A DNA stretch of 64,000 bases from Lentisphaera profundi (lineage in GTDB: Bacteria > Verrucomicrobiota > Lentisphaeria > Lentisphaerales > Lentisphaeraceae). Location of the stretch: contig NZ_CP117812.1 of the NCBI RefSeq assembly GCF_028728065.1, positions 2,108,001 through 2,172,000 on the forward strand, read 5' to 3'. A program made the position numbers and the translations under genes. Each line of letters opens with the position of its first letter. The stretch's first letter is position 1. Under the pieces are notes generated by a model. That model saw only the letters and a program-made list of their open reading frames with translations, was not told the origin of the DNA and did no database searches. Shown in pieces: positions 11,077 through 56,300 of this stretch.

Positions 11077-12348
11077 ATGAACCAACGCACTGCCATCATT
11101 ATCATTTTAGTCATAATGACTTTAACAATGAATGCCGACGTAACACCCAGAGCCCAAAAGCGCCTGATTCAACAGGAAGTAAGCCTTGAGTCATTCAACT
11201 ATAAATTTGGGGACCTTTATTATACACCTACTTTCTATACAGGCCTTGGCTATGACTCTAACTCGAACAACTCAACCACCTCTGACAAAGATAATGGCTA
11301 CTATACTGAAACAGCCCTTGGCTTAGATTTCTTTAATCAACCTTTTAGAGGACTCACACTCGATACTAATTTCATCATTGGCTACCGCGAAGGCTTTGGC
11401 AATAACCGTAATAGCGGTTTAATTCTAGGTTCTGAAAATGGCAACGCCACCATTGGGTTTGATTATGATCTTAACGAAAAAACGACTCTAACTTTTGTCA
11501 ATTCCGCCTCAATTGGAATGGATAAAATTTCTGATGCTAGAGATAATCAAAATAGTGATAGTCGTCAATATTGGGATAATGACTTGGGCGTCCAAATTCA
11601 TAGAGAGATAACTGATGACACTGGCATAGCTGTTAAAATCGGCATCGAAACTCGACGAGACCTAAAAGACAATTCGCCCGAAGAAGAATATGACGAAACT
11701 TATTTCGGCTTAACTTTAGATCACATCGTTAATTCCAAGCTCTCCATAAATCCCTACTTTAACTACGGTGAACGTGACTGGAAGGATGACACTCGAAATA
11801 ATGATGCTGACATTACTGAATTTGGTTTTACCTCAAACTATATCATCAGCGATCAAATCAACTTAAGCCTCGACTTAGCTTACCAAGAACTTGATTTTGA
11901 CAATACAGCTATCCTTAAAAGTAAATCTTCTAGTAAACAAGACGGCTTTGCCGGAGGTTTCATCCTCTCACATATTGCCACTGAAAAGTTCACCCACTCC
12001 ATCCGCGGCTCCTTTAACAACCAAGCCACAACCGTTGCAATCTCAAATGTAAGTGAAGAGACACAATTAGGGTATAGTTCTGTATATTTAGTTAATGAAA
12101 AGCTATCATTTTCCGCAAGCTTTGACTGGTTGCATGGAGAAGATCAAGGAAATACAGCCAATAGCTTCGAGGAAACATACGACATCTATATGCCAGCCCT
12201 TGGCGCTAAATACAATTTTACAGAGAGGCAGTCAATAGACATCAAATGTGAATATCAAAACAAAACTTCTGACGCAAAAAGCTTTAATGGCAATGCTAAT
12301 GAATATGAAAGAACCAATATTTTCATTAATTATACTTACATTTTTTAA
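11077..12348 (+). CDS. Outer-membrane beta-barrel protein
   Basis: A 423-aa protein with a signal peptide (cleavage near MNA, residue 22). The remainder is a series of alternating amphipathic segments ending in aromatic residues (DTNFIIGY, DLAYQEL, ASFDWLHG), and the last strand ends NYTYIF, the C-terminal aromatic signature for outer-membrane insertion. It resembles the large beta-barrel proteins (BBP2/EpsL-like) that accompany polysaccharide export genes. The next gene, 77 bases downstream, encodes a Wza-like export protein, which fits an exopolysaccharide exit role. This is inferred from context and topology, not from a sequence-specific motif. Confidence 0.7.
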   Translation: MNQRTAIIIILVIMTLTMNADVTPRAQKRLIQQEVSLESFNYKFGDLYYTPTFYTGLGYDSNSNNSTTSDKDNGYYTETALGLDFFNQPFRGLTLDTNFIIGYREGFGNNRNSGLILGSENGNATIGFDYDLNEKTTLTFVNSASIGMDKISDARDNQNSDSRQYWDNDLGVQIHREITDDTGIAVKIGIETRRDLKDNSPEEEYDETYFGLTLDHIVNSKLSINPYFNYGERDWKDDTRNNDADITEFGFTSNYIISDQINLSLDLAYQELDFDNTAILKSKSSSKQDGFAGGFILSHIATEKFTHSIRGSFNNQATTVAISNVSEETQLGYSSVYLVNEKLSFSASFDWLHGEDQGNTANSFEETYDIYMPALGAKYNFTERQSIDIKCEYQNKTSDAKSFNGNANEYERTNIFINYTYIF

Positions 12349-12425
12349 GAACTATCATAAGTTTATTATAATTATATCCTCACCTTTCAAAAAATATCCA
12401 TCCACATAATCCACATGGTGTCTCT

Positions 12426-13283
12426 ATGAATAAAGTTTTCCTAATTATATTTTTTATACTTACGACTCTATCTTCCAATGAGAAATCAACTCAACTTATC
12501 GGTTATGGTGACCTAGTTCATGTAAGCATGAAAGAAGACCTAGAAGTTGTTTACACTGGTGAAGTAAGTACAAATGGCTTTATAACACTACCCTATTTAG
12601 GGGCTATTAAAATTTCTGGTCTAAATGAAACTGAAGCTGAAGCTACGCTTAAAAAATCATTAGAAAAAGATCTATACCAGAAAGCTACCATGAGTGTCGT
12701 AGTGGTTAGAAAAGCCGTAGGACATATCTACATCTATGGAGCAGTCTCTAAGCCCGGAAAAGTGGAGATACCCCTTGAAGGTGAAATTAGCCTCGCTCAA
12801 TCTATCTCTGAAGTTGGAGGATTCTCTAAATGGGCAGATCCAAAAAAAGCCTACATCATCAAAAAAATGACTCCGACCAGTGAACTCAAACAACAGTTCG
12901 TTGATTTTGAAGCTGTTTATAATAATTTAGCTAGCCAGGCAAATTTAAACCTACAAAAAAATGATATTATTGTCATTCCTTCATTAGCGGATGGCGCAGT
13001 GACCCCTGGCTCAATAGAAGTCATTGTCGAAGGCAAAGTAGAAAACCCTGGGACAGTTTTATTCGAACCCGGAGAACGCCCTACTCTAGTCCGAGCCATT
13101 ATTAAAGCTGGGAATTTCAATAAATTTGCTGATAAACGTGATGTCCGACTCGTCCGTCGTGCCAATGGTAAGACTACAATAATCCAAGTTGATGTTTTGG
13201 AAATGCTTGAGAAAGGACAAATCCACAAAGACATCAAACTCCAATCCGGCGATTTAATCATTATTGATGAATCCTGGCTTTGA
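12426..13283 (+). CDS. Polysaccharide export protein, Wza-like (Poly_export plus SLBB domains)
   Basis: A 285-aa exported protein with a signal peptide (cleavage near residue 16). An N-terminal polysaccharide-export domain (GYGDLVHV, then GFITLPYLGAI, residues about 25-105) is followed by two SLBB beta-grasp repeats: IYIYGAVSKPGKVEIP near 110 and VIVEGKVENPGTVLFEPG near 205. This is the organisation of the Wza/OtnA family of exopolysaccharide translocons. Unlike Wza it has no lipobox Cys and no clear C-terminal amphipathic barrel helix. With the beta-barrel gene upstream it forms a two-gene export module; no glycosyltransferases are adjacent. Confidence 0.87.
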   Translation: MNKVFLIIFFILTTLSSNEKSTQLIGYGDLVHVSMKEDLEVVYTGEVSTNGFITLPYLGAIKISGLNETEAEATLKKSLEKDLYQKATMSVVVVRKAVGHIYIYGAVSKPGKVEIPLEGEISLAQSISEVGGFSKWADPKKAYIIKKMTPTSELKQQFVDFEAVYNNLASQANLNLQKNDIIVIPSLADGAVTPGSIEVIVEGKVENPGTVLFEPGERPTLVRAIIKAGNFNKFADKRDVRLVRRANGKTTIIQVDVLEMLEKGQIHKDIKLQSGDLIIIDESWL

Positions 13284-13396
13284 GCTACTTTCCATAAGCC
13301 TCATTAAAAGAGATTTTTCCATTACTTTATCCATTCATTGCAAATACACGCTGACGGGATAATATTTACTATATAATAAATCTTTAGGAATTTCAG

Positions 13397-14011
13397 ATGG
13401 CCGTAACTTACATGACTAGCATTGGCAACCCCAAGCAGCTAGACACCCTTTTAAAAGACAATGTCTTAGATGGAAAATCAGAAAAGCGCACTGTCTTTGC
13501 GGGTCGCTCCAATGCGGGAAAAAGCTCCCTTTTAAATAGCTTAACTCACAGTAAAATTGCACAAATCTCACGTGAGCCTGGCAAGACTCGTAAAGTTAAT
13601 TTATTCTTCTGCACTTACCACAAGCGCGTTTTAACTGATTTACCTGGCTATGGCTTTGCCAAGCGCAATAAAACCGAGCGCAAGTTATGGGAAGAACTCA
13701 TCACGAGTTACTTAAATGCGGACAGAGCAAATATCGAGCGCATTATTTTAGTTACTGACTGCCGCCATGGACCCTCCGATTCTGATTTAGAAGCCATGGA
13801 ATTTTTTCAAAGCCTCGATTTTAATGTCACACTGGTTTTATCAAAATCTGATAAGCTCAATCAAAAAGCTATGTCAGCACGAAGAAAAGAAATTAAAGAA
13901 ATTATCAAAGACAATAAACCCGAAAAAACTTTTTGGATTTCTAGTCTCAAGGGAACAGGAGTTCGTGAATTAAGTAGAGATATACTCAATGACTCGCCAA
14001 GAACTGATTAA
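13397..14011 (+). CDS. engB: Ribosome-biogenesis GTPase EngB/YsxC/YihA
   Basis: A 204-aa TrmE-Era-EngA-EngB-type GTPase of standard length. G1 is GRSNAGKSS, G2 lies in the GKTRKVN region, G3 is DLPGYGFA, G4 is SKSD in place of the more usual TKAD, and G5 is SSLKGTG. The family acts in late assembly of the large ribosomal subunit. Its 3' end overlaps the next gene by 23 bases in another frame, so the two are probably cotranscribed. Confidence 0.95.
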   Translation: MAVTYMTSIGNPKQLDTLLKDNVLDGKSEKRTVFAGRSNAGKSSLLNSLTHSKIAQISREPGKTRKVNLFFCTYHKRVLTDLPGYGFAKRNKTERKLWEELITSYLNADRANIERIILVTDCRHGPSDSDLEAMEFFQSLDFNVTLVLSKSDKLNQKAMSARRKEIKEIIKDNKPEKTFWISSLKGTGVRELSRDILNDSPRTD

Positions 14012-21545: not shown

Positions 21546-21579
21546 AAAAAGTCACTTCCAAAGGAAGTGGCTTTTTTTT
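21546..21579 (-). terminator. Bidirectional terminator of the signalling operon
   Basis: Stem AAAAAGTCACTTCC with GGAAGTGGCTTTTT around a short loop. It lies immediately past the stop of the minus-strand receiver-kinase gene and has A and T runs on opposite sides, so it can also back up the eno terminator. Confidence 0.85.
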
Positions 21580-23695
21580 ATTCAGGGTCGATGACCATCG
21601 TTTTAAATGTATCAGACATGGCTTCAGAATATTCCTTATTATCCTTCAAGTCCACATACTCTGACCACCAATCTTTCGCAATTTGGCCGCCCCAATCATC
21701 TAAAGGAATCTTGTTTAACTCATCATACAAAATCCCCGCTGACTGTGGTCGCTTTTGAGGATCTTTCTCCAAACACCTCATTAAAATATCGGCAAACGCT
21801 TCTGGCATGTCAAAGCCTGCTGCCTCTCGGATATCTACGGGTTTATCTTGAATATGCTTTAGCATAACTGCCATCGGTGTTGGGGCATCAAAAACATGTG
21901 ATCCGGTTAAAGCTACATAAAATGTACACGCTAAGGAATAAATGTCCGCTAGGCCACTAAGCTCTTTACTCATTGCCGTCTCGGGCGCCATAAAGTTCGG
22001 CGTGCCTATAGGCTGTCCATTGGTCAAATTACTATCTTCGACTCCTGCATTTGAAACAATACCAAAATCCAAAACCTTTAAGAAGTCATATTCTTCTCCT
22101 AGCTTTGCGATAAAGAGATTATCCGGTTTAATATCTCGATGCACCATTCCTAAACGATGCGCTTCGGCTAAACTGCGGCAAGTTTGCTTCATGAGATAGA
22201 TTGCTCGACTTGACTTGATGGCTCCAAATTTATTGATTAATTCACCCAAACTCAAACCCTCAAGTAATTCCATTACATAATAGAATTCACCCATATCAGT
22301 GACACCATAATCATATAAAGTCACCGTGTGAGGCGATCGTAAATTCGCCGTAGATCTCGCCTCTCTATGAAAGCGCTGCAATAAAGTTTCTTTACTCAAC
22401 AATGCCGAATCCAAATTTTTGATGAGCTTTATCGCTGCCGGACGCGCCAATAATTTGTGCATCCCACGCCAAACCTCTCCCATCCCACCATCACCTAACA
22501 TCCCATCTAATTTGTAGGCACCAATGGTTTGCTCTCCCTCCAAGTCTTCTTTACTAATCTCTAAATAATTAGAGTCACTTTTAAAAACCGCTCTTTCAAT
22601 TAAATTCTCTAACTCACCAATATCTCCAGGCCAAGAATACTGAACCAGATTCTCAACACTATCTTTACTTAGGCCATCAATAGTCTTAGCTAATTTCAGA
22701 CCATACTTATTCGCATAGAATTTTGAAATTGCCTCAATATCGGAAGCGCGCTCATGCAGTCGTGGAATTTGAATGAAATTATCACATAAATACTCTATTA
22801 AATCGGAACTGATTTCCTTTTTTTCATAATCTCTATTCGTATGAAAAATAACTAAGCCTTCTTCAATATTTTTACGCGTCCAGTGATTTTTTATATATCC
22901 GATAATTCCTTGCTGTTTATCTAAAGGTAACTTATCTATTTGTTCAAAATAAATACATCCACCTTTAGCAAGGTCAAATTTTTCAAGGAGCTCATTATCG
23001 CTCTGTAAAACTTCAGACTCCCTTTGGTACATCAAGGCACAGTTTAACTGCACAAATGCTCGCTCATTAAACTTCGAGGCCTGATGAATTTCTCTCGCAA
23101 TTACATTTTCGCCACAACTAGGCTTACCTAATAACATCAGTGGCTTAGCCATAATCCCTGAGTGTTCAATCTTTTCTTTTAAATCCTGTAAAACCAGGCT
23201 ATCACCAAGCAATGGACCACTGAGTTCACGCTGAGCCTCTTTACCTAAATACTTGATTCGCTTTAACTCTTCTTCCAATAAGGAATTTTTGGCTTTTAAC
23301 TTTTCACTCAAATTCCTTAGACGCAGCTGTGTCTTAACTCGTGAAATAACCTCCTCTGCCTGAAAGGGCTTAGTAATGAAATCTACCGCTCCAAGATCCA
23401 AGCCTTTGACCTTATCCTCTACTTGACCTAATGCCGATAAAAAGATAATGGGAATATCTTTCGTCTCTTCTTCAGCCTTTAACTCCGCACAAACTGTATA
23501 ACCATCTTTATCTGGCATCATTACATCTAACAAAATGATGGATGGCTTTACTTTCTCCACGGTTGCAAGTGCCTGGACTCCGCCTTTTGCAATCAGTATT
23601 TTTTTGCCTAAAACCTGTAAAGTCTTGAATAAAACCTGTAAATTGTTAGCATTATCATCGACAATCAAGATCACTTCTTCGTCAACATCACTCAC
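21578..23695 (-). CDS. Response regulator: receiver + degenerate sigma-54-type AAA+ + Ser/Thr protein kinase
   Basis: A 705-aa three-domain protein. Residues about 5-125 form a receiver with acidic pair Asp13/14, phospho-acceptor Asp57 (LLDVMMP) and Lys109 (TKP). Residues about 160-385 align with the sigma-54 activator AAA+ domain (GPLLGDSLVLQDL, WPGDIGELENLIERAV), but the Walker A lysine is Glu (GKPSCGEN, 190-197), Walker B is FEQI instead of LDEI, and no GAFTGA loop is seen. Residues 394-675 form a complete Ser/Thr kinase (Lys423, HRDIKPDN 519-526, DFG 543-545). The GTG start at 23695 is chosen because AGAGG lies six bases upstream; an ATG at 23716 has no SD. It overlaps the histidine kinase gene by 8 bases, so phosphotransfer between the two is likely. 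Confidence 0.88.
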   Translation of the reverse strand: MSDVDEEVILIVDDNANNLQVLFKTLQVLGKKILIAKGGVQALATVEKVKPSIILLDVMMPDKDGYTVCAELKAEEETKDIPIIFLSALGQVEDKVKGLDLGAVDFITKPFQAEEVISRVKTQLRLRNLSEKLKAKNSLLEEELKRIKYLGKEAQRELSGPLLGDSLVLQDLKEKIEHSGIMAKPLMLLGKPSCGENVIAREIHQASKFNERAFVQLNCALMYQRESEVLQSDNELLEKFDLAKGGCIYFEQIDKLPLDKQQGIIGYIKNHWTRKNIEEGLVIFHTNRDYEKKEISSDLIEYLCDNFIQIPRLHERASDIEAISKFYANKYGLKLAKTIDGLSKDSVENLVQYSWPGDIGELENLIERAVFKSDSNYLEISKEDLEGEQTIGAYKLDGMLGDGGMGEVWRGMHKLLARPAAIKLIKNLDSALLSKETLLQRFHREARSTANLRSPHTVTLYDYGVTDMGEFYYVMELLEGLSLGELINKFGAIKSSRAIYLMKQTCRSLAEAHRLGMVHRDIKPDNLFIAKLGEEYDFLKVLDFGIVSNAGVEDSNLTNGQPIGTPNFMAPETAMSKELSGLADIYSLACTFYVALTGSHVFDAPTPMAVMLKHIQDKPVDIREAAGFDMPEAFADILMRCLEKDPQKRPQSAGILYDELNKIPLDDWGGQIAKDWWSEYVDLKDNKEYSEAMSDTFKTMVIDPE

Positions 23696-25172
23696 CTGAA
23701 ACCTCTTTATAATCATCTATTATTTTTTGTATCGCATCAAAATCAAAGGCATTAGCTTTTTCTAAAATAATTTCTTTTAAGCTCGCTTCACTGACTTGAT
23801 CACTCAGCTTCATTGCCAAGGTCTCTAATTCACTAAAGTCACCCAAGATGGTGGCTTGCTCTAAGTCTTTCAACCAAGCTTGATCTAAGGAAAGTTCTTT
23901 CATTTCCAAAACTGGAACTCCATGAGCTACTTCTTCCAAGCTCACCTTAGCTAAGGAGCCCTCGGTTTTTTCTCCTAGCTTAGCGACTCCTTCAAATTTA
24001 GCGGGGTGCGTAAACCAAAAACTACTGCCCTTGCCCTCTTCACTTTCCAAACCGATCTCGCCACCTAATGCTTCCACTAGCTTCACACAGATCGCTAGAC
24101 CTAAACCGGTCCCACCTTCTTTCCTTCCTCCCTCATCCTGCCTAAAGGCCTCAAAAACTCTTTTTTGTTTCTCTGCGGGAATTCCTATCCCGGTATCGAT
24201 CACTAAAAACTTAAGATATTGACCTTGGATTTCAACTTTGAGATCCACACTGCCTGTCGATGTATATTTAACGGCATTCCCTACTAAGTTAACTAAAATC
24301 TGCCGTAACTTAGTCACGTCAGACTGAATATATTGCGGTATCTCTGGATTAAGAGAATGACCTAAACTCAAGTTTTTCTCTAAAGCTTTGTACCTTAAAA
24401 TATCCTCAGTCTCATTGACGATCCTACTGATATCTACCTCGTCATAAAAAAGTTCTAATTTGCCTGCTTCAATTTTTGAGATATCTAAAATATCATTAAT
24501 CACCGTCAGCAAATGCTCACCACAATTCATTATCCCCTTCAAACTGCTTTGGTACTTAGTCTGGAGGTCCGGGGAATTTTGCAATACTTGGGTATAACCC
24601 AACACTCCATTTAAAGGGGTTCGTAATTCATGACTCATATTTGACAAAAATTGACTCTTTTCCACATTCGCTTTTTCCGCTTCGGCTCGTGCTTTCTCGG
24701 CTTCTTGTGTTCGTTGAAAAACTTTCTCTTCTAATAAAGTTCCATGATCAGCTAGCTCAGCATTCTTGTGCTCCAATTCTAACAATAGCTCCTCTACGGT
24801 TTTCTTGTTGAAGCTTCCACGGATACCTTCGACTTCTTGCTCAATCATCTGGAAGTCAGTCCCCAAAAAATCTTTCAAAATCAGCTTGTCGCCCTTATCA
24901 CAAACTTCTGTGAAAAAGACTTCAAAAGGGAGATTCAATTTGTTTTCTCGGCTTAATTCTAAACATAAGTAGGCACCCATCGACTGCCTCTCAATTTTTA
25001 TTAAAAGCTCAGTTTTGCAATCCAATTGCCTGAGTAATTCCGAGAGGAAACTCACTTTGCGTGAACAGCAAACTTCCTCAAAAGCAAACATTTTAAAAAG
25101 CGTATAGAATTTTTTCCTCAAAGCCAAAACACAGGCTTCCGCTTTCACCGTCACATTGCCTAATACAATCAT
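23688..25172 (-). CDS. Sensor histidine kinase of the stressosome operon
   Basis: A 494-aa soluble histidine kinase without transmembrane helices. Residues about 1-115 may be a degraded RsbT/anti-sigma-type ATPase fold (the pattern FLSELLRQL resembles RsbT's SELAxNI). A coiled coil (130-170) leads to the HisKA domain with His181 (SHELRTPLNG), then HATPase_c with N-box VNLVGNAVKYT, DTGIGIP and GGTGLGLAI. A C-terminal helical tail of about 95 residues ends the protein. The chosen ATG (25170-25172) overlaps the RsbX-like stop as ATGA, with AGGGG upstream. There is no receiver domain of its own; the next gene supplies one. Confidence 0.88.
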   Translation of the reverse strand: MIVLGNVTVKAEACVLALRKKFYTLFKMFAFEEVCCSRKVSFLSELLRQLDCKTELLIKIERQSMGAYLCLELSRENKLNLPFEVFFTEVCDKGDKLILKDFLGTDFQMIEQEVEGIRGSFNKKTVEELLLELEHKNAELADHGTLLEEKVFQRTQEAEKARAEAEKANVEKSQFLSNMSHELRTPLNGVLGYTQVLQNSPDLQTKYQSSLKGIMNCGEHLLTVINDILDISKIEAGKLELFYDEVDISRIVNETEDILRYKALEKNLSLGHSLNPEIPQYIQSDVTKLRQILVNLVGNAVKYTSTGSVDLKVEIQGQYLKFLVIDTGIGIPAEKQKRVFEAFRQDEGGRKEGGTGLGLAICVKLVEALGGEIGLESEEGKGSSFWFTHPAKFEGVAKLGEKTEGSLAKVSLEEVAHGVPVLEMKELSLDQAWLKDLEQATILGDFSELETLAMKLSDQVSEASLKEIILEKANAFDFDAIQKIIDDYKEVSGE

Positions 25173-25738
25173 ATTTTCACCCCTAAGCACCCCATATCAT
25201 CAGTCATTTTACCAAAGTCGCGCACTGCCCGATGTACTATCGCATCTATATTTTCATGCTCTAATATGAGCAATCGTTTATTATTCAAATTCTTTATGCC
25301 ATCAGTGTGTAATAATAAAACATCATTCTCCATTAGCTTAACTGATTGTGTGAAATAGCTGCCTTTCCTATGCCCCAACATGCCATCTTTTGACACAAAA
25401 CTTTTACTCACTCCGTTTAAAAAATAGTGGCACAATACATTACCCATTGCAGAGAAATGTAATTTATTATTCATGTCAATAATTAAAACACCTGCAGCAC
25501 AACCCACTGTTCCAGAACAAATATCATTAAGTTCATCTAAGTAATTCTCTACTGTTTTACTCTCTTCAAAAACCATGAGATTTTTAATTTTATCCACGAG
25601 CAGAGCCGCAAGTTCTCCATGCCCAGTAACATCAATCAAAATGGCAACTTGACTCCCATTCTCAAATTCTTCATGATGACCCCAGTCTCCACATCGGCGC
25701 TCTCCCATTAAAGCTTGAGTTTTTATGGCGAATTTCAT
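25169..25738 (-). CDS. RsbX-like PP2C-family phosphatase
   Basis: A 189-aa SpoIIE/PPM-type phosphatase of RsbX size and position. Metal-binding motifs are GD at 17-18, IDVTGHG with Asp36, HTDG at 144-147 and the final Asp pair in MTDDMGCLGV (180-181). In Bacillus, RsbX dephosphorylates RsbR and RsbS and so resets the stressosome. It is directly coupled at both ends: its ATG overlaps the RsbT stop (ATGA), and its stop overlaps the histidine kinase start (ATGA). Confidence 0.85.
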   Translation of the reverse strand: MKFAIKTQALMGERRCGDWGHHEEFENGSQVAILIDVTGHGELAALLVDKIKNLMVFEESKTVENYLDELNDICSGTVGCAAGVLIIDMNNKLHFSAMGNVLCHYFLNGVSKSFVSKDGMLGHRKGSYFTQSVKLMENDVLLLHTDGIKNLNNKRLLILEHENIDAIVHRAVRDFGKMTDDMGCLGVKI

Positions 25739-26130
25739 AAGGACTTCTCTGCGGTAATTGTAACTCCACAGCCTTCTTCTGATTCTATCTCCAAATGATC
25801 CATAATCCGCTTAATCCCGGGTAAACCGAGACCCAAACTACCAGACGTACTATAATTATCACATAAAGCATTCTCTATATCTGCGATACCTGGCCCATGG
25901 TCTTTTGAGTATACTTGTAAGTACTCACCATGACTATTTTGAGTAATGGTCAAGGATATTTTTCCTCTATCAGCATATTTATTGATATTTTGTGCGAGTT
26001 CAGAAAAAACAGTTAAAAACAAACTTTGCGAATGTTTATCTTTGATACATAAGCCCAACCACTCTTTTGCCTCAATAATACCAGTCGCGACTGATACATC
26101 ATCATATATATAACAATTAAGCTTATCCAT
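25735..26130 (-). CDS. rsbT: RsbT-like serine kinase / switch protein
   Basis: A 131-aa GHKL ATPase that matches RsbT over its full length: N-box SELAQNINKYA (43-53), G1 DHGPGI (77-82), and the RsbT-specific block CDNYSTSGSLGLGLPGIKRIMD (90-111). RsbT phosphorylates RsbR and RsbS in the stressosome; on release it activates a partner, which is the phosphatase RsbU in Bacillus. No rsbU gene is present. The downstream histidine kinase is the obvious candidate partner here; that is inference. It overlaps rsbS by 8 bases and the RsbX-like gene by 4. Confidence 0.94.
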   Translation of the reverse strand: MDKLNCYIYDDVSVATGIIEAKEWLGLCIKDKHSQSLFLTVFSELAQNINKYADRGKISLTITQNSHGEYLQVYSKDHGPGIADIENALCDNYSTSGSLGLGLPGIKRIMDHLEIESEEGCGVTITAEKSL

Positions 26131-26476
26131 TATTATTCACAATCGCTAAAGCCGCCTCGAGACTACCCGTAAATCGCATGCCTTTAAAATCATCAACTAA
26201 TTCCACCAAGGCACTGACCACTCCTGCATTTAAACCATGATTAATAACTGCAACGCCCATGATTTGCACTTTCCTCACCAAGGCACTACAACGCTCGTAC
26301 TCTGTTTTATCCATAACTTGATAGGCTGAATAATCTAAAATTAAATACTTCATATCATGCTCATCCAACTCTTTGAGTAGAAACTTACTGAATTCTAAAA
26401 AATCACTCTCCGGCAAATCACTCGGCATCGCATAGAGTAAATAATTATTGATAAAATGACCTGGAACTTGATTCAT
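26123..26476 (-). CDS. rsbS: RsbS-like STAS-domain stressosome scaffold
   Basis: A 117-aa single STAS-domain protein of RsbS size, lying between RsbR-like and RsbT-like genes. The fold pattern is retained (LILDYSAYQVMD, MGVAVINHG, AALVE-like helix), but the usual RsbS phosphosite segment VDSF reads MDKT (Asp56-Lys57-Thr58): the phosphorylated Ser position is Lys, with Thr next to it. In Bacillus, Ser59 of RsbS must be phosphorylated by RsbT to release RsbT. The change may shift phosphorylation to Thr58 or remove this control. The gene order, spacing and size still support rsbS. Confidence 0.82.
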   Translation of the reverse strand: MNQVPGHFINNYLLYAMPSDLPESDFLEFSKFLLKELDEHDMKYLILDYSAYQVMDKTEYERCSALVRKVQIMGVAVINHGLNAGVVSALVELVDDFKGMRFTGSLEAALAIVNNNG

Positions 26477-26486
26477 AAAGGCCCCC

Positions 26487-27389
26487 TTAACTCTTTACAA
26501 TTCCAATGCCTTGACTCGTAAGCGCATGATTTAAAGCATCTTTTAAGTTGGAGTTTGTTCGTATACTTCCGACATCAATACCAAGCTCAACAATGGTTTG
26601 TGCAATCGCGGGAGAAATACCTGAAAAAGTACATTCACAGCCCATGAGACGAGTCGCTTTACTTATCTTAATCAAGTGATTGGCAACGGCAGTATCAACC
26701 ACTGCGACACCACTAATATCCAAAATACAGATTCGCGCTTGTGTCTGCGCTATTTTGGATAAAATTGAATTCATCACATCCTGACTTCTCTTGGAATCGA
26801 TAATCCCGACTAAGGGCAACATCAATATATCATCCCAAATCTCAGTCACGGGAGTCGACATTTCCATCAGTGCTTGACTTTGTTTAGAAATTGTTTTGTT
26901 GGTCATAAAGCTAAAGGCTTCGACTACAATCATCGTATCGAGATGAACCATTTTCGTAAAGGCTCGACAAACTGCATCTAAATCTTGTTTGCATTTAGAT
27001 GCTAAAATCCTTTTTATCCATAAAAATAAGGAATGATCTACGGCTACAAAGTACGCAGATAGCGACAAGCCTATTCTCGCATGAGTCAAGCCTATCTTTT
27101 CACGACTCAGAACATAGTCCTCATCAATTTTGGCCAACAAAAATTCCTGCCAATACCTACGCTGCATATTTTTAACTTGCTGTAAAAGTTGCTTGTCTGA
27201 GAAAAATATCGTGAACTCTTGCGACTTTTCTAACCACACATAAAAGTCAGCAATAAAGTCATCTAAATGATCCGCTAAGTCTTTACCTGCTGCTTGAATC
27301 AGTTCGATATCTTCCGAACTTATCTGAAAAAGCTCCAGTAATTCTTGCGATTTATAATTACAAATGGTGTCACTATGCTTACTAATCAT
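26487..27389 (-). CDS. rsbR: RsbR-like sensor with heme-globin domain and STAS domain
   Basis: A 300-aa protein. Residues about 10-165 form a globin-coupled-sensor domain: LFQISSEDIELI, then MQRRYWQEFLL, and the proximal-His helix KIGLTHARIGLSLSAYF with His103 as likely heme ligand. Residues about 181-296 form an RsbR-type STAS domain with the phospho-threonine segment VVDTAVA (Thr233) and the second site SIRTNSNL (Thr278). RsbR paralogues form the stressosome core with RsbS; globin versions in Vibrio and Chromobacterium bind heme and oxygen. The ORF opens at an upstream TTG, but the ATG at 27389, preceded by GGGGAT, is chosen. It is first in the six-gene operon. Confidence 0.9.
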   Translation of the reverse strand: MISKHSDTICNYKSQELLELFQISSEDIELIQAAGKDLADHLDDFIADFYVWLEKSQEFTIFFSDKQLLQQVKNMQRRYWQEFLLAKIDEDYVLSREKIGLTHARIGLSLSAYFVAVDHSLFLWIKRILASKCKQDLDAVCRAFTKMVHLDTMIVVEAFSFMTNKTISKQSQALMEMSTPVTEIWDDILMLPLVGIIDSKRSQDVMNSILSKIAQTQARICILDISGVAVVDTAVANHLIKISKATRLMGCECTFSGISPAIAQTIVELGIDVGSIRTNSNLKDALNHALTSQGIGIVKS

Positions 27390-27814
27390 TTCTATCCCCA
27401 ATTATTTAAATATCTCACACTATATCCTCTGCTAGTTGAGAAGAAGCTTCTATCATAATTACAGAAGCAACAATTCATTGACTTTTTATTAAATCTGAGA
27501 TAAATGCATTAAAAAACCCCCCCTCATGATCAAGCTTAGATACTCTTAAGTATTGAGCAAGTAGTTCAGGAATTTTATTTTTACACGAATAAAACAGCAT
27601 CGATCATTGTAATTGTGTCACCATTAGCAAGTAAAAATCAACTTATCACTCAGATAAAAAGGCCTCTCGAAAAACGCTAAGCTTTATTAATCGCCCCTCA
27701 AAAACTCACTTAATTTTTCATTCAAATATTTAGTGGTGATTTGGTGTTGATAATCCCTTGCTTTTCATTACATTGTGCGGAAACTAATTGATCTATTTTA
27801 AAGGAATAAATATT
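27390..27814. other. Divergent regulatory region between stressosome operon and argG
   Basis: No gene was found in these 425 bases. It carries the divergent promoters. A candidate argG promoter is listed separately. On the stressosome side no clean -35/-10 pair was seen; a palindrome AGAAGCTTCT lies at about 27442-27451. An A6C7 tract at about 27511-27523 is notable but unexplained. Confidence 0.4.
27747..27774 (+). promoter_or_regulatory. Candidate sigma-70 promoter for argG
   Basis: TTGATA at 27747-27752 and TACATT at 27769-27774 with 16-base spacing. It would give a leader of about 35 bases before the argG ATG, which has AAAGGAATA upstream. Confidence 0.4.
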
Positions 27815-48741: not shown

Positions 48742-51037
48742 ACTTCCACCCATCTCCTAAAATTGTATCTAATTTTTGTTGAATATTATTTAGTTCACTT
48801 GGAAAAAGTTCTGTGACCTGTAGAAGCTTCATCCCGCTTTCACGCGCTCGGCTTTGAAGATTATTTTTTAAGTAATTATTAATCACATTATAGCGATTAA
48901 AAACATAATGATTAAAAACCACCGCAAGCATATCAGGATCCGCATCATTCTCTATGGCTTCTGAAAATTGTAAAGCACACAAAGCATAGGCGGCATAGAG
49001 TTTATCATCATCTTTAATTGGATAAATTGTTTGATACAGGTACTTCTGCTGAATCATTGGCAATTGGGGGATTTTATACGTTTTACCAAAGCTATCTTCA
49101 AGTTCTACACTACCCTCATCAGTATTATACACACTTATGGATATATCTTCCAAGTCGCCTCCAGGTAACAATAAATCTTGTCCTTCAAGTAAGCTCAAAC
49201 CTTGAGCAAATTTGAGTTGATACTCCTGCGCTTTGCCAATAAGCTTTTCTAAATCTTCCACTTCACTTAAATACACACCAAAAAGATTGCTTTTTTGCGC
49301 TGAAATCAAGGATAAAGCTAAGCGTGGCTTCCAGTAATAAACTTCTTTAAAACTACTCATTAATATTTTTGTTTTAGTTTCAGTCCATAACTTTTCCAAC
49401 ATGATCGCATCGTTAAAAAGAAGCTGCGGAACTTCATCCACTTGCTCTTCAGTGATGGTCTCTTGAGTAAGAATTTCTTTTGATTTATTAATATCACTAA
49501 GAACATGCGTATATAAATCTTCTTTAGTTCGCAAGGCTCTTTTTTCTTGCCTCACTTCATTAATTAATATGGCTTTTTCACGTACAATATGATTAAGTTT
49601 TTCTGAACTCTTGTCGAGCTTAGCTTGGAGAGCTTTTTGCTCCTGTTGACCCACTTCATTTAAAACGGAGAGAAGCTTTGCTTTCAGAGACATTTCTCTT
49701 GCATTTCCTTCTTCAGGTAGTCCTTGCAAGGCCTTTTCTAATTCAAGCCTTGTCCTCGCTATCTGTAAACTTCCCTGTTGAATACGGTCGAGTAAATTTT
49801 CAGCTTCAACTTCATATACTTTTTTTGATGGACTCGAAAAAATAGAAACCATTAGGGCTGCCGTCACAGCTGTAATGGCGATTAAATTAGTCCAAAATAT
49901 ATTTGAGGTCGAGTTTTGACCTTCACTCATAATAAAAGCTTCCGCGTCATGATAATCATCATTTGCACTTAAGCTGCGGATTTTTTTACGAGGTAGAGAG
50001 TCGAGTGAATTGGTTTCTTTCTTTTTCCCACCAAGCTGTAGATCTCCAATATCTTTTCGATTAAAGGAGATGGTGTGAATCCCAGGAACCATGCTCGGGT
50101 CCTTGCTTAAGCTTTTTCGGACTCGAACAATTTCTTTAATTAAAGCTTCATGATCAAGAAACCTTTTTTCAGGTGACTTCTCCATCATTTTAGTAATGAG
50201 CTTACGCACATCCAGCGGTAAATCTACGCGCCGATTATTAAACACAACCGGATCTTGAATATGTTGACGAGCCAATTCACTGACGTTTTCTGAATCGAAG
50301 GGTAAAACACCTGTAACGGAGTGATACAAAACAACTCCCAAGCTATAAATATCAGCTCGACAATCCATCGGATCTTTTAAAAATTGCTCTGGATTCATGT
50401 ATGCTGGTGTCCCAGATACTTCTTGTACATCCTGTAAATCTCTTTGCTGACGAGCTAAACCCATATCCGTCAGCTTCACCCAACCGTCAGCGGTAATCAT
50501 AATGTTGTCGGGCTTAATATCACGGTGAATTAAAGAATCTTTTTCCCAAGCATAATGCAAGCCTTCCGTCACTTGTTGTATTATACCTAAGGCTTCACTG
50601 ACATCTAGTTTTCCGTTTTTCTCTAAACGATGACCTAGGGTGTCGCCTTCTACATACTCCATCGCAAGATAGAGATCACTCTCATCCACCCCAAATGCAA
50701 AAACTTGCACAAGGTTTCCGTGAATCATTGAAGCTACCGATTGCGCTTCACGCAAAAATTCTTGGCGGAATTTATTATCTGCCGAATACCTTCGCAATAA
50801 AACTTTTAAAGCAATAGGGCGGTCTAGACTGATTTGCCTAGCCAAAAACACTGTTCCCATTCCACCTACACCAACAACTTTTTCAATAGAAAAGTCTTGG
50901 CCTATCACCCTTCCTGGATCATAAATTTTTCTAGGAACAACAATTTTTTTTGAGCATGTCGGACAATTTTTACTAGTACCAAGCTCTAAACTCTCAGCTT
51001 GATAAGTCGACTTACATAGAACGCACTGGAATTTCAT
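48707..51037 (-). CDS. Membrane Ser/Thr protein kinase with N-terminal zinc ribbon
   Basis: A 776-aa kinase. Residues 1-35 form a CxxC-x16-CxxC zinc ribbon (Cys5, 8, 25, 28). The kinase domain (about 49-310) has GVGGMG, Lys78, HRDIKPDN (171-178) and TDMGLAR, in which DMG (191-193) replaces DFG, and looks active. A transmembrane helix lies at 381-401, followed by a long Gln/Glu/Leu-rich coiled coil and an external or sensory C-terminal domain of unknown type. It starts in overlap with the hemW stop (TAATG) and overlaps glgE, so the ftsB-hemW-kinase-glgE genes are coupled. The two tandem proteins at 53.3-60.1 kb have the same N-terminal ribbon but dead kinase sites. Confidence 0.9.
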   Translation of the reverse strand: MKFQCVLCKSTYQAESLELGTSKNCPTCSKKIVVPRKIYDPGRVIGQDFSIEKVVGVGGMGTVFLARQISLDRPIALKVLLRRYSADNKFRQEFLREAQSVASMIHGNLVQVFAFGVDESDLYLAMEYVEGDTLGHRLEKNGKLDVSEALGIIQQVTEGLHYAWEKDSLIHRDIKPDNIMITADGWVKLTDMGLARQQRDLQDVQEVSGTPAYMNPEQFLKDPMDCRADIYSLGVVLYHSVTGVLPFDSENVSELARQHIQDPVVFNNRRVDLPLDVRKLITKMMEKSPEKRFLDHEALIKEIVRVRKSLSKDPSMVPGIHTISFNRKDIGDLQLGGKKKETNSLDSLPRKKIRSLSANDDYHDAEAFIMSEGQNSTSNIFWTNLIAITAVTAALMVSIFSSPSKKVYEVEAENLLDRIQQGSLQIARTRLELEKALQGLPEEGNAREMSLKAKLLSVLNEVGQQEQKALQAKLDKSSEKLNHIVREKAILINEVRQEKRALRTKEDLYTHVLSDINKSKEILTQETITEEQVDEVPQLLFNDAIMLEKLWTETKTKILMSSFKEVYYWKPRLALSLISAQKSNLFGVYLSEVEDLEKLIGKAQEYQLKFAQGLSLLEGQDLLLPGGDLEDISISVYNTDEGSVELEDSFGKTYKIPQLPMIQQKYLYQTIYPIKDDDKLYAAYALCALQFSEAIENDADPDMLAVVFNHYVFNRYNVINNYLKNNLQSRARESGMKLLQVTELFPSELNNIQQKLDTILGDGWKYDSTATKDGLQ

Positions 51038-53325: not shown

Positions 53326-56300
53326 TTGGCGAACTTTACTGTAACATGCAAAAACTGTTTATCTCAAATTGAATTAGATCTATCTAATTCAATCGAACAC
53401 TACCCTTGTCTTAATTGTCAACAGGAAATACCTCTGCGCCCTAATAGTATGGGAGAGAATGTTGAACTCAATTCACACATTTCGACTCTTTATGAAATAA
53501 ACGATGATGGCTATAGTAAATTATTTATCGGCTATGATAGCGATGAAAAACAAATGTGTTTAATTCGCGTCTTTGACAAAACTTTATATACCTCAGTCAG
53601 CTCTCCAGATGAATTAAAAAACATTATGGAAGCAGCGGCCGTACATGTCGGATCAAGCCATCTCCCCATAATTTCATCTGCTTATTTTGAAGAATATCTT
53701 TATCAAATAATGCCATACATTAAACTTGAATCGCTGGAACAAATCATTGACAACGCCTATTTATGGAGCCCACTTCAAGCACTGGACTTATGCTACAACA
53801 TCTTAGAATCTTTAGAGAAGGCCTACACCATAACCGGTAGTGGCCACTTCAATCTCAACCCTCATAATATCTTTATTACTAATGATGGCGAAGTAAAATT
53901 CATCGGCTTCACATTAGCTCCTCAACTACTACAAGACACTAAGTTCATCTCATCTCCATTTAATATATTTGATATTTATTACACGGCTCCTGAACTTAGC
54001 ATGGGACTTCATTACCCAAACCAGAGCAGTGACCTCTATTCCCTGGGCTTGTGCTTATACTATATGCTCAGCGGACTGACACCTTTTGGGGATGCTGAAG
54101 ACAAAAGTGAAATCGTCTATCAAGACCTTTCTTTCCCTGAAAATATACTTGCGGATTTCGACGAAGACTTCATGACTATTTTTACAACTATGACCCATCA
54201 CGATCGGAATCATCGCTACCAATCGTATAAACAAGCATTAGATGCCTTCAAGCAATATTATAACTCTTGTGGCCATACTCAACTCAAACAAATGGAAGGG
54301 GAAAAAACTCAATTATTTCAAAGTCAGCATTTTATACAGCATATAATGCCTATCCTTCAGAAAAAACCAAAATCTCTTAAACTCAAAAGTAAGCAAAACT
54401 ATAACTCCGAAGTCATTCGACAAAGAATTTCTACAGAAGTTCGCCTCCCTAGAGAATTCAAAACCAAAATTCATCAGCCTCGTCAAAATAATAACCGCCG
54501 CCTAGTACAAAGAAGCAACTCGAAATTACTCCAAAGCTCCACGAGAGTTCCCCATCAGAAAAAAACCAACAACATTTTAGTATTTGGCATCGCTCTCGCA
54601 CTTTGTCTACTCACCCTGATTTTATGCCTTATTAGCTATAGCGTTCTTAGTGCAAAATCAAACGACGACATCCCTAGCGAGGACCTCACGACCCTCGAAC
54701 GTAATAATACAAAAGTAAACAACACTGCAATTTCAGAGAGCCATCCTCAACCAATCAAAAAAAATGATAAACAAAGACATATTGAAACATCGTGGTACGA
54801 TACAGAACTTGATAAATCAGAGCCAAACTTTACACAAATAAATAAAAAAATAGCCACTGACCTAAGCACCAGAAATCTTGATACGGAAAAAACATTATTA
54901 CTGGTAGACAAGCTCACCCCTCCTGTCACTGCTTTACAAGACTTAAAAACACTTGCCGCAATTCCTCCTCCAATCAACGAGGAATTTCAGCTCTTAGCCC
55001 TACAACTTATCAATGCTGACCTTAGCGCTGCTAAAATGACTCTGCTTGACCTGAAAACAGAAAACATTAACACCAAGCTAGACACGCTTATGGAGCTCAT
55101 AAAAGACTCGAGCCATGAACAACTATTCAAAAGTATTTTTATCAAAATACTTAGCTCTGATGAACCCATAATCGCTATCAACTACGAAGGACAATTAATA
55201 GACGCAGAACTTAATTCCTATAATTTAAAACAAGGCACCATCTCTGTGAAATCCTATATCAAGGGTGCCAATATCAATCTGCAAATTCCTTACACAGATT
55301 TAGATCCTCGATACTTAGTCACTTGGCTTAACAGAAATGATAAAGATAGTGAAACTTTTTTAAGGTTTATGTTCCTCATTCAAAGCAACGATTTCACGGA
55401 GGCCTATCGCTACTTAAAACCTTATAATGGCGCTCTTGCTAAATCTTTAAAACCCCTTGTCCAGAAATACTTGAATTCAGAAGCAGAGTCAACTCTAGAA
55501 ATAACCCTTCTACACTTCCATCAAAAACTGGGCTCCAAAATCAACCCCCTAACTATAACATCCAATAACTCTTTCGCCTTACTTGCTCTCATCCAGCAAA
55601 TCAAAAGCCAATACTCATTTTCCGATTTCACTATCGAAAATCAGAAACTAATGGACTCCTACATGGCTCAACTAAAGTCTATTCAAAGAGAAAATCACCC
55701 TAACACTCTTATTGTTGGCCCTGATAATCAATTCCAATTACCGCGCCTATCAATCAGCCTTAAAAGCCCAAACAAAATCATCCGACTACTTCCTGGAATT
55801 TATACTGCTCCCATTATTATCGATCACGCAAACACCGTGATTATCGGCTGTACAGGAGTTAAAATCCTATCCGATATTGTTGTTAACTCATCTTCTTGCT
55901 CATTGGATAACCTTACTATGACCAAGGGGAACCTTATTATCAATGAAAATTTAAAATCAATTAACATCTCCAATTGTGACTTGAAAAATGGCTATATACA
56001 GATTTTTAATAAGTCTCAACAAATAAGCATTAATAATTGTATCATTAAGGGCTTAATAACTGCCGACACCGCAACAAAACTGAGCATTCAAAACTCTTTA
56101 TTACTTCCGAGTGAGAGTCATTCAACGGTATTATCTGGATCTCCTAAACGAACACAATTTTTAAACTGTATTTTCAGTTCTTACGGTCCTCCCATTTTTT
56201 CAAATTTAAAAAGGACTAATGATATCAGGTTTCGTTATTGTTTATTTTCTACTGACTACCACCTAACGAAAAGCCCCTTCCAAACTTATATAAACTTAGA

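Follow-up and report, generated by a model that had tools for sequence, protein, structure and literature searches.

The window, a 64,000-nucleotide stretch of the Lentisphaera profundi genome, carries a block of six genes on the reverse strand (21578-27401) in the order globin-RsbR, RsbS, RsbT, RsbX, histidine kinase and, last, a fusion of a receiver, an AAA domain and a Ser/Thr kinase. The first gene (26487..27401) encodes an RsbR-type sensor of 304 aa with a protoglobin and a STAS domain (Pfam Protoglobin 3e-27, STAS 1e-15). Its best solved relative is 7o0i_B (E 1e-92), listed as 'Anti-anti-sigma factor', which we take to be the RsbR of the Vibrio vulnificus stressosome; the FY and HARIGL motifs of the two proteins align and are putative heme-binding residues. 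The second gene (26123..26476) encodes an RsbS-like STAS scaffold of 117 aa, for which Pfam gave no match and phmmer found 6qcm (E 4e-5) and 7o0i_a (E 4e-4). An RsbT-like GHKL switch kinase of 131 aa (25735..26130; HATPase_c 2e-10, HATPase_c_2 6e-7) and an RsbX-like PP2C/SpoIIE phosphatase of 189 aa (25169..25738; SpoIIE 1e-9) follow, and the four genes make up a globin RSTX module: globin-STAS RsbR, STAS RsbS, GHKL RsbT and PP2C RsbX, in that order. The fifth gene (23688..25190) encodes a histidine kinase of 500 aa (HisKA 9e-21, HATPase_c 2e-29) with a proposed RsbT-like docking domain at its N-terminus. The rsbT gene overlaps rsbS by 8 nt, rsbX overlaps rsbT by 4 nt and the histidine kinase gene overlaps rsbX by 22 nt; taking a GTG start for the fusion, the last five genes of the block all overlap, by 4-22 nt. 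No rsbU, rsbV, rsbW or sigB was found among the ORFs of the block. A terminator-like hairpin with a 14-pair stem and a T tail (21546..21576) lies between the operon and a convergent enolase gene; the region holds 6 such sites against 4.2 expected in shuffles, and only its position backs this hairpin. A promoter scan of the region gave 17 sites against 17.3 expected, and we claim no promoter. The first-pass annotation of this DNA omits the upstream genes, and the globin RSTX operon with its histidine kinase is the most informative part of the locus.

The arrangement resembles the globin stressosome of V. vulnificus and V. brasiliensis, which, in the excerpts of PMC9237108 and PMC4976288 that describe it, has the same RSTX order followed by two-component genes (VvD1-VvD2). 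The likeness extends to RsbR itself, given its closeness to 7o0i_B, and an excerpt of PMC9237108 names Lentisphaerae among the taxa with such RSTX modules. The window departs from the Vibrio system in RsbS, where alignment places a Lys opposite the phospho-Ser (the Ser of DSF) of solved RsbS proteins; this position is Lys in congener G208, Arg in congener G293 and Ala in G967, a genome in the same phylum group as a Pirellulales MAG. Since these RsbS proteins do not have the phospho-Ser, release of RsbT cannot run by the textbook phosphorylation of that residue. The RsbS reading frames compared (window 26123-26476 on the reverse strand, L039:4823-5182, L053:5376-5735 and the L165 frame 11958-13403) read Lys, Lys, Arg or Ala. 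The output differs as well: it ends here in the receiver-AAA-kinase fusion, whereas the legend of Figure 3 in PMC9237108, which covers eleven downstream architectures, gives abbreviations that include neither a Ser/Thr protein kinase nor an AAA domain.

The fusion gene (21578..23716, reverse strand) encodes a receiver (REC), a long helix, a degenerate sigma54-activator-type AAA domain (psiAAA) and a Ser/Thr kinase (STK), as read from Pfam, a motif table, AlphaFold and Foldseek. The ORF yields 712 aa from its ATG and 705 aa from an in-frame GTG at 23695, where the first-pass annotation had already begun the gene. This GTG is probably the real start, because it corresponds to the first residue of both congener proteins. 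Residue numbers below follow the ATG start, in which the phospho-acceptor of the receiver is Asp64 (Asp57 in GTG numbering). Pfam matches, all above curated cut-offs, were Response_reg at 16-127 (5e-25), Sigma54_activat at 170-277 (2e-9), Sigma54_activ_2 at 170-319 (6e-9), AAA_lid_14 at 322-388 (6e-13) and Pkinase at 401-663 (6e-42, 144 bits). With phmmer, NtrC1 (4l4u, 1ny5) aligned over residues 16-386 and PknA/PknB over 397-667, and NtrX-, NtrC- and PknB-type models of NCBIfam matched the protein's parts under their equivalog cut-offs. The receiver retains Asp20, Asp21, Asp64 and Lys116, which are invariant in the alignment. The kinase retains Lys430, Glu452, the HRD Asp528, Asn533 and the DFG Asp550, and has all the Hanks-type features (Gly loop, VAIK Lys, HRD, DFG and APE). 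A receiver, a sigma54-activator AAA+ domain and an intact Ser/Thr kinase had been read in one chain by the first-pass annotation, and the order of the Pfam domains and the catalytic residues bear this out; the joining of a His-Asp receiver to a Hanks-type (eukaryotic-type) kinase likewise holds as a domain architecture.

In the middle segment, the AAA+ sigma54-interaction fold is present by profile (PF00158, 37.8 bits against a cut-off of 20.2; PF25601, 48.8 bits against 27). The Walker A site reads GKPSCGEN, with Glu replacing Lys, and Walker B reads IYFEQI, with EQ replacing DE; the GAFTGA loop is deleted and the sensor-II Arg is gone (GDIGEL). The earlier motif reading (Walker A Glu, FEQI at Walker B, no GAFTGA) was exact. 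The Pfam scan detected no HTH as a C-terminal DNA-binding domain, and Pkinase follows the lid. An AlphaFold model, built on an alignment of 26 proteins (the window protein and related loci) that included canonical NtrC rows, showed a confident REC, a helix at 120-166 and an AAA domain with pLDDT 76-94 across most of 171-390, dipping at 231-240 and 281-290; the kinase part, with only one homologous row in the alignment, was of low confidence. In Foldseek, NtrC1 (4l4u, 1ny5) and NtrX ranked first, with VpsR and FleQ among the closest. As the canonical rows bias the model towards an AAA fold, it supports that fold but does not prove it; the HMM results are independent of the model. Profile matches, phmmer and Foldseek place the segment with the sigma54-activator-type AAA+ domains, on the very point on which the earlier reading had been made to depend. 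The protein shares the REC-helix-AAA order and fold with NtrC1/NtrX-type bEBPs, but has no intact Walker A/B, GAFTGA or DNA-binding domain, and carries a kinase instead. VpsR, FleQ and NtrX are regulators of the bEBP fold that depart from the standard scheme and end in DNA-binding domains; all three are among the Foldseek matches of the model, whereas the window protein ends in a kinase.

The six-gene block is found in the same order in 3/3 genomes of the genus searched (the window's, G208 and G293, the RsbR ORF of the last being called with a late start). The same order occurs in G967, where the flanking genes are different. In that phylum group 11 RsbR loci were found, spread over 10 of 362 genomes, and a psiAAA-STK gene adjoins only the one in G967, so the stressosome link beyond the genus rests on one genome. 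The window's own class, too, has RSTX modules with no fusion in view (L216, L217). A same-strand histidine kinase gene adjoins 12 of the 15 REC-bearing fusions, the neighbour motifs and residues of relatives being spotted by simple patterns. The fusion in L158 has no such gene in 16 kb, and none was spotted on the 6-7 kb contigs of L153 and L156.

Pfam found no named domain in the first 150 residues of the window histidine kinase. A related N-terminal domain opens the gene after RSTX in G967, G302, G040, L229 and L231. In hhalign with six sequences, this N-terminus matched the first half of RsbT (E 4.5e-5, Prob 69), with controls (reversed, RsbS, RsbX and the histidine kinase catalytic part) at E 0.3-0.6; with four sequences the match was unconvincing (Prob 2.8, E 0.016), and only 4 of 36 pairwise comparisons exceeded z 3. 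An AlphaFold model of the histidine kinase alone was unusable (mean pLDDT 40). The profile comparison makes an RsbT-like N-terminus likely. Histidine kinases that follow RSTX in L238 and L237 carry Pfam HATPase_c_2 (3e-16 and 1e-7), and we infer from such sequences that RSTX-linked histidine kinases may dock through an RsbT-derived domain. This would be an alternative to the view in an excerpt of PMC9237108, which proposes that RsbT phosphorylates the downstream kinase; according to the same source, as excerpted, some proteins downstream of RSTX have an RsbU_N domain and most have none. As further fusions beside RST genes, L238:2947-4764 (forward strand) joins an RsbT-like domain to a histidine kinase, and L233:3342-4352 and L234:3386-4396 are RsbT-RsbX fusions.

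From the gene order and domains we propose a wiring in which a globin stressosome signals through the histidine kinase to the receiver, and the dead AAA domain serves as a dimer or oligomer scaffold that switches on the kinase; we lean towards this pathway, with modest confidence. By homology to the Vibrio complexes, globin RsbR and RsbS would form a stressosome that holds RsbT, and the signal of a globin-type stressosome would be oxygen or redox, with REC-psiAAA-STK as its output. The adjacent histidine kinase would then receive the signal from the stressosome or RsbT at its RsbT-like N-terminus, a step for which the sequence evidence is weak. Adjacency, gene overlap and intact residues suggest that the histidine kinase would phosphorylate the receiver Asp. 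The phosphorylated receiver would rearrange the REC-helix-psiAAA part, in which an NtrC1-like fold appears to be kept and the residues for the usual ATP binding and hydrolysis or for sigma54 contact appear to be missing. Dimerisation can activate STKs, and a psiAAA dimer or oligomer could bring the kinase domains together for trans-autophosphorylation. The active kinase would phosphorylate its targets, and RsbX would reset the stressosome.

Another arrangement, which we regard as unlikely, is that the histidine kinase and REC-psiAAA-STK form an ordinary two-component pair and that the upstream stressosome genes are co-transcribed and signal elsewhere. Fusions of family f5 and of G1288 do adjoin other histidine kinases with no stressosome in view, and the f5 genomes gave no RsbR homologue at E 1e-25. 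Against such a pair, the block is conserved between the genus and G967 despite the different flanks, the related N-terminal domain is also found on the gene after RSTX in L216, L217, L229 and L231, and histidine kinases after RSTX in L237 and L238 carry the Pfam HATPase_c_2 domain.

In the sampled genomes we found 23 X-psiAAA-STK proteins, the window protein included. With the latter as query, an AAA-STK fusion in one frame was present in 3 of the 288 phylum-sample genomes and in 5 of 197 genomes of the class, two samples that overlap; the five comprise the genus's three genomes, G126 (one such protein) and G290 (four). When L060 was the query, fusions were found in 5 of 329 genomes of the phylum group of L060's own genome, in 6 of 199 (seven proteins) of that of the Pirellulales MAG, in 2 of 199 of that of an Acidobacteria MAG, and in 0 of 195 of the Myxococcus phylum, a set that had no positive control. 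L060 alone, among the 80 loci listed in a scan of genome contigs, combined AAA and kinase motifs in a single ORF; its genome is labelled uncultured proteobacterium, and the phylum placement follows that label only. An additional tandem fusion protein in L167 brought the family to 23; at this locus (L167:7046-12806) two tandem REC-psiAAA-STK genes are followed by a REC-histidine kinase.

The inputs of the 23 proteins are REC (15), GAF (3: L060, L150 and L152), protoglobin (2: L154 and L155), PAS (1: L160) and a membrane-type N-terminus (2: L151 and L161). Pfam was run on 14 of them, and for the other 9 the input was assigned from their sequences and the alignment. L161's input was judged by eye only, and that of L151 has no Pfam domain. 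All five kinase catalytic residues are present in 23/23, and REC Asp64 and Lys116 in 15/15 REC-bearing members. The AAA motifs fared differently: GAFTGA is present in 0/23 and the FRED Arg in 3/23. Because Sigma54_activat, AAA_lid_14 and Pkinase pass their cut-offs in 14/14 scanned members despite the lost catalytic residues, the profiles speak for a retained psiAAA fold. Since 22 other proteins have this domain order and almost identical losses, the domain combination is not a chance one. As GAF, PAS and globin domains also drive the AAA-STK core, the receiver is just one of several inputs; at the level of architecture, the core appears to be a general module that takes REC, GAF, PAS or globin domains as grafted inputs. 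In L154:907-3162 and L155:901-3045 (both on the reverse strand) a protoglobin is fused straight to psiAAA-STK, making a one-protein route from globin to kinase. With protoglobin there in place of REC, globin input recurs by two routes.

In an AAA tree built without the motif columns, the 23 fusion AAA domains fell on one side of a branch and 70 canonical ones on the other (SH-aLRT 90, below the starred level). The 70 segments were a random draw from 75, the remaining five being in neither AAA tree; two other degenerate bEBPs of the window's genome, which sat on very long branches in a first tree, were left out of this one. In the kinase tree, which included eight STKs of the window's own genome, the fusion kinases and some membrane-sensor kinases formed one clade (99/97). 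The membrane-sensor Hanks-type STKs L181 and L207-L210 belong to this clade and differ from the fusions in that no AAA domain separates their sensor from their kinase; L207 and L208 nest among the fusions. A single fusion clade was not rejected either (AU p 0.38). An earlier tree built without L207 and L208 recovered the fusions as one clade (support 89); it held 21 of 30 own-genome STK loci, with the focal locus excluded and eight having no ORF that bears the motif at the site. On these trees, the psiAAA-STK core may have arisen once, with the AAA domain lost in places, or may have arisen more than once.

What the dead domain does is best read as a relay, and we offer this as a reading rather than as a result. 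A relay or scaffold role is more likely than decay, because the architecture recurs in several bacterial groups. We consider it improbable that psiAAA is instead a nucleotide or second-messenger sensor, whose degraded P-loop pocket would bind a ligand and gate the kinase together with the receiver, in the manner of VpsR and FleQ with c-di-GMP. These two are among the closest folds, with entry titles that name c-di-GMP binding, and the Walker A Lys is kept in 2/23 proteins (L060, L150) and the Walker B DE in 1/23 (L156); the Lys is, however, replaced by residues as diverse as E, A, D, S, H, L, M and Q, and no common pocket is evident. Equally little credence goes to a passive remnant, left when a REC-AAA-HTH activator lost its DNA-binding part and gained a kinase, with the AAA domain as a weakly constrained spacer. 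Among congeners psiAAA (63-70% identity) varies more than REC (84-92%) or STK (80-91%), which also fits a loosely constrained linker (dS was saturated in all comparisons except one, and we give no ratio), and the AAA-free sensor kinases L207 and L208 are close relatives. Such a remnant is at odds with the recurrence of psiAAA with different inputs in several groups, its fold kept, and with the grouping of all 23 AAA domains. It is very improbable that psiAAA binds to intact bEBP rings in its own cell, for the kinase to phosphorylate them or the protein to poison mixed rings: canonical Sigma54_activat domains do occur in the window's genome, with five strong matches (E 2e-40 or better), but the fusions lack GAFTGA and most of them also the FRED Arg.

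The architecture itself, real and conserved, combines known parts in a new way. Our literature search found, in the portions of the sources it covered, no description of a sigma54-type AAA domain fused to a Ser/Thr kinase. According to an excerpt of PMC11032199, 307 STK architectures were counted in Planctomycetota and outgroups and tabulated in its supplement, where the AAA-STK combination may be listed without comment. More tentatively, X-psiAAA-STK could be an undescribed class of kinases in which a dead sigma54-activator adaptor turns many inputs into Ser/Thr kinase activity and which, in some lineages, is the output of an oxygen-sensing stressosome via a histidine kinase with an RsbT-derived docking domain; we hold this fuller proposal to be credible but somewhat doubtful. 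If it is true, partner switching, His-Asp relay and eukaryotic-type phosphorylation would work in series from one operon, and a chain running straight from receiver to Ser/Thr kinase would be a simple link between the two main bacterial phosphorylation systems. The outputs of Gram-negative stressosomes are mostly unproven, and the operon names a concrete, assayable candidate with its own histidine kinase; the one-piece globin-psiAAA-STK proteins L154 and L155 could open the route to study with far fewer parts. The family also offers a repeated example from nature of an AAA+ domain that has outlasted its ATPase residues, useful for asking what the bEBP fold does without ATP.

Other kinases and degenerate activators were seen as well. 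The window's genome (G000, 5.46 Mb) has 95 Pkinase matches, and besides the focal one the window holds two, at about 50141-50890 (reverse strand) and 53578-54234 (forward strand). In L166:7108-11982 a REC-psiAAA-STK gene is convergent with genes that by eye encode an apparent anti-sigma antagonist, an RsbW-type kinase and a GAF-PP2C phosphatase. Two loci of the window's genome encode degenerate proteins of the activator type. L041:3406-4839 (reverse strand) is a degenerate bEBP with Arg for the Walker A Lys, KN at Walker B and a weak HTH_8 match. L042:2561-4213 (forward strand) joins FHA, GAF and a degenerate sigma54-type AAA domain; Pfam shows no DNA-binding domain in it, and its FHA domain could read Ser/Thr phosphorylation.
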